Source of the DNA: a virus
DNA: 30,137 bases
IMG/VR virus record: IMGVR_UViG_3300042547_000703
Location: 1 to 30,137 of that record
Direction: 5' to 3' (one strand)
The translations under genes and the position numbers were made by a program. The notes under the pieces were generated by a model. That model saw nothing but the letters and a program-made list of their open reading frames with translations. It was not told where the DNA came from and did not search any database. Shown here piece by piece: positions 4,171 to 8,707 of this stretch (the stretch's first letter is position 1; each line of letters opens with the position of its first letter).

Positions 4171-4899
4171 ATGCCATTACCAAAAATTGCGACTCCAACT
4201 TATGAACTTGAGTTACCATCTACAGGAAAAACAATAAAGTACAGACCATTTTTAGTTAAAGAAGAGAAAGTTTTAATTTTAGCTTTAGAAAGTCAAGATG
4301 TAAAACAAATCACTCTTGCTATTAAATCTGTTCTAAAAGATTGCATTCTCACAAAAGGAATTAAAGTAGAAGAATTGCCTTCTTTTGATATTGAATATAT
4401 TTTCCTAAATGTTCGTGGAAAATCAGTAGGTGAAGCTATTGATCTTGTAGTAACTTGTTCCGATGACGGAACTACGGAAGTTCCCGTAAAAGTTTATGTA
4501 GATGAAGTTAAGGTACAAAAAGATCCAGATCACACGACAGAAATTAGAGTTGATGATCACATTGTAATTAAAATGAAGTATCCATCTTTGGATCAATTTA
4601 TCAAGAACAATTTTGATTTTACGACTCAAGAATCTGTATCAACTATTGAAAAGTCATTTGATATTATTTCTTCTTGTATTGAATCAATCTTTACTGAAGA
4701 AGAAGCTTGGGCTGCTGCAGATGTAACTAAGAAGGAATTGATTGAGTTTATTGAAAGTATGAATGCTGATCAATTTAAAAAGATTGAAAAATTCTTTGAG
4801 ACAATGCCCAAACTGTCTCACACTTTTACGGTCGTAAACCCAAATACCAAAGTTGAGAACGAAGTAACTCTGGAGGGTCTTACAAGTTTTTTCGGCTAA
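4171..4899 (+). CDS. 26: Baseplate hub assembly protein gp26 (tape-measure chaperone type)
   Basis: The T4 gp26 family acts in hub assembly and corresponds in gene position to tail-assembly chaperones. The 242-residue protein (T4 gp26 is 208) has the family opening, PLPKIATPTYELELPSTGK followed by YRPFLVKEEKVLILALES, with an acidic helical centre and a C-terminal helix around FIESMNADQFKKIEKFFETMP. It ends in LTSFFG. The codons for the two Phe residues form a T TTT TTC slippery heptamer (4887-4893) three bases before the stop. A -1 slip there enters the frame of the following 61-residue ORF without a stop, giving a 305-residue fusion. It sits just upstream of the probable tape measure, as lambda G/GT does. 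Confidence 0.82.
   Translation: MPLPKIATPTYELELPSTGKTIKYRPFLVKEEKVLILALESQDVKQITLAIKSVLKDCILTKGIKVEELPSFDIEYIFLNVRGKSVGEAIDLVVTCSDDGTTEVPVKVYVDEVKVQKDPDHTTEIRVDDHIVIKMKYPSLDQFIKNNFDFTTQESVSTIEKSFDIISSCIESIFTEEEAWAAADVTKKELIEFIESMNADQFKKIEKFFETMPKLSHTFTVVNPNTKVENEVTLEGLTSFFG
4887..4893 (+). promoter_or_regulatory. Putative -1 programmed ribosomal frameshift site (T TTT TTC)
   Basis: In the gp26 frame the codons read agt-ttt-ttc-ggc-taa, so the bases fit X XXY YYZ with X=Y=T and Z=C. After a -1 slip the next codons are cgg-cta-att-atg, which continue into the downstream 61-residue frame. Downstream, 4914-4925 (GATCTTGAGTCA) can pair with 4972-4982 (TGACTGAGATC), two five-pair helices that might stimulate slippage, although the 20-base spacer is longer than usual. 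Confidence 0.65.
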
Positions 4900-4901
4900 T
4901 T

Positions 4902-5087
4902 ATGGCTCATATTGATCTTGAGTCATATTTCCGTATTAACTTCGCTCTCATGCAGTTCCATAAATACTCTTTGACTGAGATCGAAAACATGATGCCTTGG
5001 GAAAGAGACATTTATCTCACCCTGTTGAAGATTCATATAGAAGAAGAAAACCTAAAGGCACAACAGGCAGCAAACCGTGGCAATTAG
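4902..5087 (+). CDS. gp51-like small hub assembly protein, or frameshift extension of gp26
   Basis: These 61 residues (AHIDLESYFRINFALMQFHK..., then LTEIENMMPWERDIYLTLL and an Glu/Gln-rich tail) resemble the C-terminal extensions made by frameshifting in phage tail chaperones such as P2 E' and lambda T: a short helical unit with an EIENMMPWER motif. It has its own ATG two bases after the gp26 stop but no good ribosome site, and it lies in the -1 frame relative to gp26, reachable through the slippery site at 4887-4893. Its last 11 bases overlap the GTG start of the tape-measure candidate. It may be made only as a gp26 fusion, only free, or both; sequence alone cannot decide. Confidence 0.7.
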   Translation: MAHIDLESYFRINFALMQFHKYSLTEIENMMPWERDIYLTLLKIHIEEENLKAQQAANRGN

Positions 5088-6819
5088 TTCCCCACTTAAT
5101 CCATCTACTATTGCAAGAGAAAGATCCACGACGGCTGAAGCTGCACAAAATTTTATAACTGGTGGATCTCCTCTTGGCGAAGGAGTTGTTGCCAGTGCCG
5201 CAAATAAAATTGTAGGATTTCAAAGAGGTGCTGCTGGAGTTGCTGCAAGACCACCAGATCTTCAAGGAATTATTCAAACATTATCGACAAGTATTCTAAA
5301 CAATGTAGAGAATAGAGTACAATCAATAAATCAAAATGTAACTCAGATAGTTAATAAAAGTATAGGTGGATTAGAACAAGACTATAAAGACCGATTGGGT
5401 AAGATTGATGCAGCTAAACCAAGTTCAATCTTACAAAATTTCTTAAATTTATACAAAGAAGCTCTTGGTTATATTCAATTCTTAGGAAACAGAAAAAATA
5501 TAAGAACTCTTGGTGATAACCTAAAATCTTTACAAAATGTATTTACTGAAACTTTCAATATTGCAAAATTAATTCGTCAAACTATTATAAAAATAGTCAA
5601 ACAACTTTCCAATTTACCTGCAGCAACTGGTGGTGGTGCTGGAATAAATTTAGATCTTGATATTCCTGGCGGAAGTCTCAGAAGAGGCCCTCTGAGTGGA
5701 ATTGGTAGAATGATAAGACGCAGGCCTGGTATGGTGTTGGGTGGTGCTGCTTTAGCTGGCGGATTAGGTACTCAGGTTGTGAGTGGAATGATGGATATTG
5801 GTGGAGATGTGCAAGCCGCTCCAATGTCAGAAGGTACAATACCAACTTCTTTATTGGATAGATTTAATAGTATTTTAGATAGATTTTCTACAGCAATAAA
5901 TGCATTTAATACTAAAAAACCTAGACCCACAACTGCTTCGGGTGGAGCATCTCCAGCTCCAACGAAAGAAGGTGAAAAAGGAGCTCCAGGAACTCCAGGA
6001 GCTCCAGGAGCTCCTGCAGATTTTTCTGGATCTGCAAACGCAGAAAAATCATTTAATTATTTTATAAGTCAAGGATATAGTAAAGAACAGGCTGCAGGAA
6101 TTGTTGGAAATCTAATGCAAGAAAATCGTGCATTAGATCCAAATGTTGCTAATGCTATTGGTCATAAAGGAATTGCTCAATGGGATCCAAAGATAAGATA
6201 CCCAGCACTTGTTAAATTCTCCAAAGAAAGAGGATTAGATCCTAATACTTTAGAAGCACAACTTCAATATTTTGAACATGAAATGGTTACAGGAAGTGGA
6301 GGTTTGTCCAAAAAAAGATTTTTAGCAGAAGCTAAAACAGTTGAACAATCTGCAGTTTTGATGAGGAAAGGATTCTTCAGACCAGGCGAATCTGAAGCCA
6401 TGGATGCAAATAGAATTAAATTTGGACAACAAGTTTTGTCAACATATGGAGGAGTTGCAAAACAAGGGAAACCTGGAGTTGAAGGAAAATCAGGAGAAAA
6501 AGGAACTCCAGGAAAACCCGGTGTTTCTACAACACAATTAACAACATCCAAAGTTGAACCTGCACCTACTCCAGCTGCAACTCAACAACAAATTGCACAA
6601 ACAGTGTCACAACCTCCAGTTCAACAGACATCACAAATTACTGTTGCTCCAATGAATATGGCGAGCCCCCAAACACAGTCTACAAAGGTAGGAGACAATG
6701 CTATACCACCACCAGCTATGAGTAAAGGTGGTATAAGTGTTCCATTTTTATCTTCATCTAATAATGATAATTTCCTTACATTATATTCAAGAATTGTATA
6801 TAACATTGTAGACGGATAA
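5077..6819 (+). CDS. Tape-measure/baseplate hub protein with internal phage lysozyme domain
   Basis: The position after the gp26 chaperone pair and the length of 580 residues (T4 tape measure gp29 is 590) make this the best tape-measure candidate. Residues 1-200 are helical with hydrophobic heptads (NVENRVQSINQNVTQIVNKS); about 215-245 is a Gly/Ala-rich hydrophobic stretch. A phage tail lysozyme domain spans about 319-460: AEKSFNYFISQGYSKEQAAG, NLMQEN with the likely catalytic Glu349, then HKGIAQWD. Collagen-like Gly-X-Y runs flank it on both sides (about 299-313 and 464-482) and probably act as flexible linkers. The C-terminal 100 residues are Gln/Thr/Pro-rich. The start is GTG at 5077, overlapping the previous ORF by 11 bases. 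It is possibly a separate hub lysozyme, with the next gene as tape measure. Confidence 0.7.
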   Translation: MAISSPLNPSTIARERSTTAEAAQNFITGGSPLGEGVVASAANKIVGFQRGAAGVAARPPDLQGIIQTLSTSILNNVENRVQSINQNVTQIVNKSIGGLEQDYKDRLGKIDAAKPSSILQNFLNLYKEALGYIQFLGNRKNIRTLGDNLKSLQNVFTETFNIAKLIRQTIIKIVKQLSNLPAATGGGAGINLDLDIPGGSLRRGPLSGIGRMIRRRPGMVLGGAALAGGLGTQVVSGMMDIGGDVQAAPMSEGTIPTSLLDRFNSILDRFSTAINAFNTKKPRPTTASGGASPAPTKEGEKGAPGTPGAPGAPADFSGSANAEKSFNYFISQGYSKEQAAGIVGNLMQENRALDPNVANAIGHKGIAQWDPKIRYPALVKFSKERGLDPNTLEAQLQYFEHEMVTGSGGLSKKRFLAEAKTVEQSAVLMRKGFFRPGESEAMDANRIKFGQQVLSTYGGVAKQGKPGVEGKSGEKGTPGKPGVSTTQLTTSKVEPAPTPAATQQQIAQTVSQPPVQQTSQITVAPMNMASPQTQSTKVGDNAIPPPAMSKGGISVPFLSSSNNDNFLTLYSRIVYNIVDG

Positions 6820-6823
6820 TATC

Positions 6824-8707
6824 ATGGCTGCACCTAAAAAAGAAACTACTTTAAGTTCTCCCTTGATATCTGCTTTCAATAATATTGTAAGCATTAATAG
6901 ATCTAAGTCTGCAATGAGATCCACTCAAACTTCATATAATGAATTTTTGAAATTCATGAGTGTGGAAGTTAAAAATTTAGAAACAATAAAACTTCCAGAT
7001 GAGAAAAAAGTTAAAAAATTATCAAATATTAATGTTGCATCCACATTTGGATCTGCAGGAAGTCTACTTTCTAATTTAGCAAATGGTACTCTTGATGCTG
7101 CTGGGTTAGTAGGAAACTTTTTTGGAGGTGGTGGTAGAAAAAATCCAAAAGCCGGAAAAGTAGCCCAGAGGGGAACTAGAATAAAAATTCCAGGAGTTAG
7201 AGGACTTCCAATTTTATCTGCGGCTCTTGCTGGACTAGATTTTGCACAAGGAGTTGCTGGTGGAGAATCAGTTGGAAAAGCAGGTGCTGGTGCTGTTGGA
7301 TCTGCTGCAGGGGCAGCTGCAGGTGCTGCTGGTGGTGCTTTAGCTGGAACTGCTCTCGCTGGAATGATTGGTCAAACTCTTATACCAGTTCCTGGACTAG
7401 GTTTTGTTATAGGTGGAGCAATCGGATCATTTGCTGGAGGTTATTTAGCTGATAGAGCATATGAAGCGGCAACTGGAGAAGGTAAAGTAAAGGAAAAAAC
7501 AAAAGCACGACTTAAGGAACAAGAACAAAAACAAAAAATTGAAGCTGCTTCTCTTACGACATTAACATTTCCACAAGTTTTGGATAAATTTGAAAGTGTC
7601 GTTATAAAGTTTGAAAGATCAGTTTTACTTGGAACTTTTGGTTCAACTGACTCATCTAATGATACACAATCAAAAGAAATGGGTGGTGAAGTTTTAGAAA
7701 ATGATGATTATGGTGATAGGGATACAAGTGGAAGTACTCTTCAAGGAACTATGCAAGACCTTGAAGCTTCTGGGGGATCTTTACCCAGTTCTAAGTTGGG
7801 ATCTAAGTATGGAATGAGATTTCATCCTATCTTGCGTCGTAATAAAATGCACATGGGAAATGATTATCCCATGCCGACTGGAACTCCAGTCAGTGTAATT
7901 CAACCTGGCACGGTTGCAAATGCAGGGTTCGTTAACAATGGATATGGGAATCAAGTAAAAGTTGATCATCCTGGTGGTGTAAGCAGCTTTTATGCTCACT
8001 TAGACTCGGTAAATGTTCAAGCTGGGCAACAAATAAGTCCAGGCACTGTGATTGGCAAAGTTGGCAGTACTGGACAATCAACAGGTCCACATTTGCATTT
8101 TGAAGTAGATGTGAATGGAAAAACAACTGATCCAAATCCTCATCAAGATAAAATTTTTAGATTTGGTGGAAATGTTAAGGTTAAATCATCCGTCAAACAA
8201 CAACAAAACTTAGCTGGACAGGATGTACAGACTCAACAACAAAACAAATCTCAGATAAGTCAACAAGAATTATCCAAAATGCCAACAAATCAGTTAAAGG
8301 GAATGTTTGATTCTACAGTAACTGGCCTTACAACTCCTGCAGTGGTTAAAGCTACAGAACAAGCAAGAACCAAAGGAAAAGAATCTGGGTTATCTGGAGA
8401 AACTCTAGATAGAGAAGTTATGATAGCAGGTATCAGGGCTAAAAATGCAGAATCTCAAGTTATGGGAATGTCACAACAACTAGTAGTACCTCAACAATTA
8501 GAACAATATCCAGACTATAATACACCACAGAATAGTGTCACAATTATTCCAATGATGATGGGTGGTGGTGGAGGATCCCAACAAAGACCAATGGTAATTT
8601 CTTCTGGAGGAGGTGGAGGAACGACTATTATGCCTCCAGTTCCACAAGGACAAGTGTTAAATAGTTTGTTTAACACTATGTTATTGACTAACTTATCGGG
8701 AACATAA
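6824..8707 (+). CDS. Baseplate hub/tail protein with M23 metallopeptidase domain
   Basis: This 627-residue protein carries a lysostaphin-type M23 endopeptidase domain at about 324-437, which cuts peptide cross-links in peptidoglycan. The zinc-site motifs are visible: HMGND (His343, Asp347), a YAHLDS segment, and HLHFE (His423, His425), within the usual G.RFHP...GTPV...G.VIG..G.TG...GPHLHFE framework. Residues about 155-210 form an Ala/Gly zipper-like hydrophobic region that could insert in a membrane. The C-terminal 190 residues are Gln-rich and then Gly-rich. It starts four bases after the preceding gene, which carries the lysozyme domain, so the two hub proteins supply glycan- and peptide-cutting activities in tandem. 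Its size is also compatible with a tape-measure role. Confidence 0.75.
   Translation: MAAPKKETTLSSPLISAFNNIVSINRSKSAMRSTQTSYNEFLKFMSVEVKNLETIKLPDEKKVKKLSNINVASTFGSAGSLLSNLANGTLDAAGLVGNFFGGGGRKNPKAGKVAQRGTRIKIPGVRGLPILSAALAGLDFAQGVAGGESVGKAGAGAVGSAAGAAAGAAGGALAGTALAGMIGQTLIPVPGLGFVIGGAIGSFAGGYLADRAYEAATGEGKVKEKTKARLKEQEQKQKIEAASLTTLTFPQVLDKFESVVIKFERSVLLGTFGSTDSSNDTQSKEMGGEVLENDDYGDRDTSGSTLQGTMQDLEASGGSLPSSKLGSKYGMRFHPILRRNKMHMGNDYPMPTGTPVSVIQPGTVANAGFVNNGYGNQVKVDHPGGVSSFYAHLDSVNVQAGQQISPGTVIGKVGSTGQSTGPHLHFEVDVNGKTTDPNPHQDKIFRFGGNVKVKSSVKQQQNLAGQDVQTQQQNKSQISQQELSKMPTNQLKGMFDSTVTGLTTPAVVKATEQARTKGKESGLSGETLDREVMIAGIRAKNAESQVMGMSQQLVVPQQLEQYPDYNTPQNSVTIIPMMMGGGGGSQQRPMVISSGGGGGTTIMPPVPQGQVLNSLFNTMLLTNLSGT

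Follow-up and report, generated by a model that had tools for sequence, protein, structure and literature searches.

In phage lambda, a −1 slip on the heptamer G_GGA_AAG yields the tail assembly chaperones gpG and gpGT. Their relatives were reportedly surveyed by Xu, Hendrix and Duda in 2004. A further −1 shift is that of E. coli dnaX, in which the heptamer A_AAA_AAG is accompanied by a Shine-Dalgarno (SD)-like stimulator about 10 nt upstream and by a downstream stem-loop. Frameshifting of tail chaperones is well known, and the lambda gene gives a short product and a minority C-terminally extended product, neither of which is found in the virion (PMC5009743).

The gp26/gp51 locus analysed here is proposed to share with lambda both this pair of products and the position of the slip, near the 3′ end of the chaperone gene and just upstream of the tape measure. 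It differs from lambda in its heptamer (T_TTT_TTC), in the presence of an SD-like element at a fixed spacing, in a first product of greater size (PF12322, ~240 aa) with no recognisable sequence homology, and in belonging to T4-like myoviruses. With dnaX it has in common the upstream SD-like stimulator, a homopolymeric heptamer and a downstream stem-loop; however, the shift shortens the dnaX product, whereas here it would extend the product, and the stem is clade-specific.

In T4-like phages gp26 and gp51 are usually treated as separate genes, as the earlier note on this DNA stated without a citation. In T4, the contractile phage that has been studied best, gp51 has been described as an essential protein of unknown function; assembly requires it, yet the particle does not contain it (PMC3004832). 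Cyanophage gp51 was described by Sullivan et al. 2010 as short, with only ~20% of the normal length and without the first ~200 residues, and they recorded no gp51 in Aeh1 (PMC3037559).

A probable slip site at the gp26/gp51 junction

The window, i.e. the whole stretch of 30,137 nt that was analysed, is a 30-kb genome fragment of a T4-like phage, and in a similarity search phages of Synechococcus and Prochlorococcus proved to have gp26 and gp51 similar to those encoded here. The features considered below are as follows.

4171–4899, + strand: gp26, zero-frame product of 242 aa, G-like short form with PF12322 (Pfam E 3.4e-71; phrog_150 E 8e-78; AlphaFold2 model pLDDT 88)
4872–4877, + strand: Shine-Dalgarno-like GGAGGG, proposed 5′ stimulator, the GGAGG ending 10 nt before the heptamer
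4887–4893, + strand: slippery heptamer T_TTT_TTC, putative −1 shift site (kept in 303 of 305 distinct junctions; wobble bases fixed in 76 sequences)
4893–5087, + strand: −1 extension (RLI plus 61 residues), T-like C-terminal module, open in −1 (phrog_634 E 1.5e-26; C-terminal part of phrog_150; homology to the C-terminus of T4 gp51)
4897–4899, + strand: zero-frame stop TAA of gp26 (0, 3, 6, 9 or 24 nt from the heptamer in relatives)
4901–4909, + strand: 5′ arm of a 9-bp stem, containing the gp51 ATG and starting 7 nt after the heptamer
4902–5087, + strand: gp51 as conventionally annotated from its ATG, the same module as the −1 extension
4919–4927, + strand: 3′ arm of the 9-bp stem, pairing with 4901–4909
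5077–6819, + strand: next gene, with a GTG start, an 11-nt overlap with gp51 and a phage lysozyme domain; tape-measure candidate and presumed client (Pfam Phage_lysozyme2; match to the tape-measure family phrog_9570, E 8e-19, by way of the lysozyme part)

The gp26 ORF (4171–4899) ends in AGT TTT TTC GGC TAA (4885–4899). As the earlier note had claimed, a perfect T_TTT_TTC (4887–4893) lies three bases before the stop at 4897–4899, in the phase needed for a tandem −1 slip, and the −1 frame continues without a stop into the next ORF, up to 5087. This frame is in fact stop-free from 4857 to 5087, overlaps gp26 by 43 nt and contains the 61-codon ORF of gp51; read after the slip, it gives FF-RLI-MAHIDLESYF.... 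A programmed −1 site calls for a canonical X_XXY_YYZ heptamer, in zero-frame phase and ahead of the stop, and for a −1 frame that is open across it; the junction offers both. The predicted gp26-51 fusion comprises 241+3+61 = 305 residues, and its predicted junction peptide, in the version of the window, is ...SFFR / LIMAHIDLESYFR. A G/GT-type chaperone system should also supply a short and a long form with a common N-terminal domain, which is the case both by frame analysis here and in the form of two genes in T4.

We conclude, with a probability of about 0.92, that gp26-51 is made by a lambda G/GT-type chaperone −1 frameshift on T_TTT_TTC, which has been replaced in T4 by duplication and fusion; that slipping occurs, how often it does, what the stimulators do, the binding to the tape measure and the direction of change are all inferred. 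Very probably, ribosomes slip back by one base at the end of gp26 and produce the short and the long form from one gene, an inference made without expression data. In the mechanism we propose, a minority of ribosomes would slip on 4887–4893, the two tRNA-Phe on the ribosome pairing anew in the −1 frame. The slip would be assisted by base pairing between the 16S rRNA anti-SD and GGAGGG 10 nt upstream and, in the clade of the window, by the 9-bp stem 7 nt downstream. Non-shifting ribosomes would make gp26 (242 aa, G-like) and shifting ones gp26-51 (305 aa, GT-like). The two would together serve as tail assembly chaperones for the tape-measure protein encoded directly downstream, neither being part of the virion. 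The short form may act many times, while the long form would be the minority that recruits tube subunits, the last step being drawn by analogy with lambda. In T4 and its close kin, the gene would have been duplicated, the gp26 copy giving the short form only and gp51, a zero-frame fusion, the long form only.

This reading rests on what was observed here, namely sequence conservation, missing gp51 starts, paralogy, distribution and fold resemblance. Counted against it are the lack of expression data, the weakness of T_TTT_TTC by E. coli standards, two related phages without the heptamer, the in-frame ATG kept in 169 of 307 relatives, the restriction of the downstream stem to one clade and a fold score slightly too low to be trusted by itself. 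T_TTT_TTC is not known to rank with the strongest E. coli −1 heptamers. U_UUU_UUU and U_UUU_UUA are much less shift-prone than A_AAA_AAG in E. coli (PMC5009743).

Loci were gathered from IMG/VR and isolate phages by protein similarity to gp26 or gp51, without use of the motif, and 408 loci with separate gp26 and gp51 gave 305 distinct junctions. The sequences are related to one another, so that the 303 cases do not count as independent; a set of 124 representatives shows differences of more than 20%. The gp51 module lies in the −1 frame in 304 of the 305 junctions, and 303 combine this with an in-phase heptamer T_TTT_TT[C/T/A] (TTTTTTC in 262, TTTTTTT in 40, TTTTTTA in 1). The heptamer and the open −1 frame extend from Kyanoviridae to phages of Pelagibacter, Pseudomonas, Sinorhizobium, Stenotrophomonas, Agrobacterium, Vibrio and Aeromonas. 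An alignment of the junction across related phages had been set beforehand as the test that could refute the frameshift, and it did not do so. On these counts, and with 116 of 307 junctions lacking any gp51 start (see below), the sequence evidence supports the claim that a −1 frameshift operates in this T4-like phage, the slip and the fusion protein remaining inferences.

The exceptions are few. In one metagenomic contig (L125, 1312–1495), gp26 is split by an earlier indel, through either a sequencing error or gene decay, and the junction still reads AGT TTT TTC ACT TGA followed by the −1 frame. Only Pseudomonas phage Cygsa01 (L430), one of the 305 distinct junctions, truly lacks the heptamer, as does its sister in the tree, Vibrio phage K364. 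Both (L430 3309–3482 and L170 3723–3905, respectively) have lost the heptamer and show a TAATG stop-start overlap of gp26 and gp51, probably a third solution by coupled translation.

Selection on a slip site should go beyond its coding role, and this was found to be so. Among 76 diverse sequences, just two of the 226 wobble columns of gp26 are invariant, both within the heptamer (the best of the remaining columns reach 88%, and the median is 49%). Elsewhere in these gp26 proteins, only 10 of 322 Phe-Phe pairs are slippery. The residue before Phe-Phe varies among Ser, Asp, Asn, Ala, Thr, Gly, His and Arg, yet the third base of its codon is T throughout, against an expected 61%. As judged from these comparisons, the conservation of the heptamer is not due to chance and is not explained by protein conservation. 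Since the distance between heptamer and stop varies (0, 3, 6, 9, 24 nt), it is the heptamer and not the gp26 tail that is kept. In Pelagibacter phage Mosig (L163 3732) and about 30 other junctions, the zero frame runs 24 nt past the heptamer, giving a short form with a different tail at an unchanged slip site.

No literature linking gp26/gp51 of T4-like phages with frameshifting was found in the sources available, which left subscription journals and preprints mostly uncovered; an earlier report is not excluded. As far as these sources show, this kind of event has precedents; what is new is the carrier family, the link of the signal to an SD-like element, and the switch between a frameshift and a duplicated gene. 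The reading also gives a function that can be tested to two core genes of phages that rank among the most abundant in the sea.

Two genes in T4-type phages and one in the others

In T4, gp26 and gp51, known as hub assembly chaperone and catalyst, stand back to back; gp26 has 208 aa and lies on the minus strand, gp51 has 249 aa and lies on the plus strand. They are paralogues, as each matches PF12322 from end to end (E 8.8e-64 for gp26, 3.9e-52 for gp51). The 61-residue cyanophage module is present in frame in T4 gp51 as well (phrog_634 E 1.2e-23; phrog_150 positions 13–280 of 282). Cyanophage gp51 is therefore the C-terminal module and not a truncated gp51, since T4 gp51 consists of PF12322 plus the same module; the part missing from cyanophage gp51 would be supplied by gp26 through the inferred frameshift. 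Thus T4 shares with the window the domain and the module, but differs in having two divergently transcribed genes, a zero-frame fusion and no slip site.

The distribution of the two arrangements was then compared. Zero-frame fusions occur only in phages with a separate short copy, i.e. T4, 44RR, Ac42, the RB49-like kvi, JK32 and 50AhydR13PP. T4 has two PF12322 genes, and 13 other phages searched whole have one each. The slip site is absent from the two-gene T4-type phages and present in nearly all one-gene phages, including other Straboviridae (AsFcp_4, 65.2, XZ1). The unrooted tree separates the short from the fused copies, each kind making up a single group, and every bootstrap tree agrees with this. 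This sequence-based picture fits a single duplication at the base of the T4-type lineage, and frameshifting appears the likelier ancestral state in view of its wide distribution, with the reservation that the tree is unrooted. We think it likely that the PF12322 −1 frameshift is ancestral in T4-like phages and that one duplication took place in the T4/RB49/44RR/Acinetobacter lineage, after which gp26 lost the slip site and gp51 fused the frames; gp26 and gp51 would then be the G and GT of T4, with their ratio set by two genes. The frameshift reading would give T4 a G/GT pair and provide an example of a frameshift replaced by gene duplication.

The gp26 fold and the downstream genes

The AlphaFold2 model of gp26, a confident one by its pLDDT of 88, was compared with known structures. 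Structural re-alignment of residues 1–95 ranked 3fgx (RBSTP2171, Z 7.9), the HK97 tail assembly chaperone 2ob9 (Z 7.9) and YqbN (3klu, Z 7.3) as the top three, the next match reaching 5.0. Only 2ob9 is labelled a phage tail assembly chaperone by the tool; 3fgx and 3klu are likewise regarded as such chaperones. These proteins resemble the first ~95 residues of gp26 in fold, at 4–10% identity and with chains of 96–119 residues; gp26 has a further ~150. The top Z, 7.9, falls slightly short of 8, the value usually required for trust, and the Foldseek E was 1.7; Foldseek searches against the PDB gave nothing significant for either gp26 or T4-type gp51, and a sequence search for solved relatives of gp26 gave nothing relevant. 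VIA-align listed no tail chaperone for the T4-type gp51 model, which does not exclude a chaperone. Citrobacter phage Moon has a 545-aa protein that bears the name 'Tape measure chaperone' and whose match to this model is weak (TM 0.35, rank 36).

In the gene following gp26/gp51, the tape-measure PHROG match runs through the lysozyme domain, and its tape-measure identity is inferred. Two successive large genes with different peptidoglycan hydrolase domains lie here in the window, 5077–6819 (phage lysozyme) and 6824–8707 (M23 peptidase). The tail of phage S-CREM2 measures 418 nm (PMC10665884). Its two genes after gp26/gp51 (L432 29484–34181 and 34185–38555) encode 1565 and 1456 residues, compared with 580 and 627 in the window. 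Both are 2.3–2.7 times longer in S-CREM2. At about 1.5 Å per residue, the sum of the two proteins, and neither alone, approaches the 418-nm tail, which suggests a tape measure split over two proteins.

It has to be considered whether the frameshift is real and its products are nevertheless baseplate-hub assembly factors, unrelated to lambda G/GT and without any action on the tape measure. The classification of T4 gp26/gp51 as hub assembly chaperones favours this, and according to some work gp26 is itself located in the hub (PMC3004832). The fold match of gp26 residues 1–95, with the HK97 chaperone and two similar proteins at ranks 1–3, speaks against it. So does the position of the gene, since the tape-measure-like genes that immediately follow are far longer in S-CREM2 with its 418-nm tail. 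Moreover, the two roles overlap, the T4 hub itself including the tail-length protein gp29. The virion proteome of S-CREM2 lists ORFs 201, 203, 204 and 208–213 but not 206 and 207 (PMC10665884). ORFs 206/207 are gp26/gp51, and their absence from the list, which also counts against this reading, is no proof of absence from the virion. A role confined to the hub is accordingly unlikely in our judgement. The data fit gp26 and gp26-51 being G/GT-type chaperones acting on the tape measure, with tape-measure binding and a set ratio of short to long form inferred; the earlier note's analogy with lambda G/GT is strengthened by the fold match of gp26 and by the short and long paralogues of T4.

Proposed stimulatory elements and the unlikely separate synthesis of gp51

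Stimulatory elements are a further mark of programmed frameshifting, and they were present in the sequence, the SD-like element being widespread and the stem confined to the clade of the window. An SD-like 4-mer is located 8–16 nt 5′ of the heptamer in 278 of 307 relatives, compared with 5.7% of gp26 control windows, with a peak at 8–10 nt. GGAGGG at 4872–4877 had been missed by the earlier note. Downstream, the 60 nt after the heptamer fold with a mean z of −1.63 against dinucleotide shuffles, compared with −0.55 for controls (p 7e-13). The 9-bp stem is paired in 89.8% of cells in 49 relatives, and one of its pairs changes from GU to UG/UA in 15 sequences, giving a covariation score that was reached by 0 of 500 shuffles. 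RNAalifold returned no consensus structure in 49 relatives, and a universal downstream RNA structure was rejected, the stems being clade-specific; a small hairpin of the GGUCC-AUAU-GGACC type is clade-specific in the same way.

The earlier note had suggested that a weak pairing of 4914–4925 with 4972–4982 could help. Such a pairing exists (−10.7 kcal/mol as a duplex in the window), but it is poorly kept, with a mean of −4.8 kcal/mol in 54 close relatives versus −8.7 for the proximal stem, and the two are mutually exclusive. The suggestion needs to be changed: as stimulators, the SD-like element upstream and the proximal stem are to be preferred to the distal pairing, their action being inferred; the stem is a probable clade-level enhancer and not a defining part of the signal.

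A separate gp51 gene, translated from the ATG at 4902 by coupling or re-initiation, would make the T-run incidental, its bases being fixed by Ser-Phe-Phe. An in-frame ATG does precede the gp51 core in 169 of 307 relatives, the window included, and the TAATG overlaps of Cygsa01 and K364, which lack the heptamer, are what such an arrangement would look like. However, 116 of the 307 junctions, and 61 of the 124 representatives that are below 80% identity, have no ATG, GTG or TTG in the −1 frame between the upstream stop and the conserved core. Where the in-frame ATG exists, an SD-like 4-mer stands 4–14 nt upstream in only 1 of 167 cases. The conventional ATG of the window sits inside the 9-bp stem. 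Besides, the protein-neutral wobble bases are invariant only at the slip site, and the residue before Phe-Phe varies while its third base does not. We hold a purely separate gp51 to be very improbable; some separate gp51 could still be made alongside the frameshift product in the 169 relatives keeping the ATG. RNA polymerase slippage on the T-run can be practically dismissed, for although one extra U would give the same frame and a fusion mRNA without ribosomal frameshifting, the run of exactly 6 T in 267 of 307 relatives (7 in 27, 8 in 13) is too short for bacterial transcriptional slippage, which normally needs more than 6, it ends at a codon-phased C in most, and a fixed-spacing SD-like element is irrelevant to a polymerase.

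The −1 frameshift on T_TTT_TTC would also account for the published oddities of gp51. IMG/VR contig L350, which we infer to be Aeh1, reads GAT TTT TTC GAC TGA followed by the −1 module, with no start codon before the core. The short cyanophage gp51 and the 'missing' gp51 of Aeh1 would be explained in that the missing residues are gp26 and the module lacks a start. On this reading, several public genomes have gp51 annotated wrongly or not at all, the cause in the cases read being a frame without a start codon ahead of the core or an overlap of the module. In P-SSM7, whose gp51 lacks a start codon ahead of the core, gp51 is annotated from a start far inside the module, and in S-PRM1 it was left out of the annotation. 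Records with truncated or unannotated gp51 (L174 2801–2896, L175, L428 and L167, as well as ACG-2014i, S-CAM4, ACG-2014d and VH7D) need a joined CDS.
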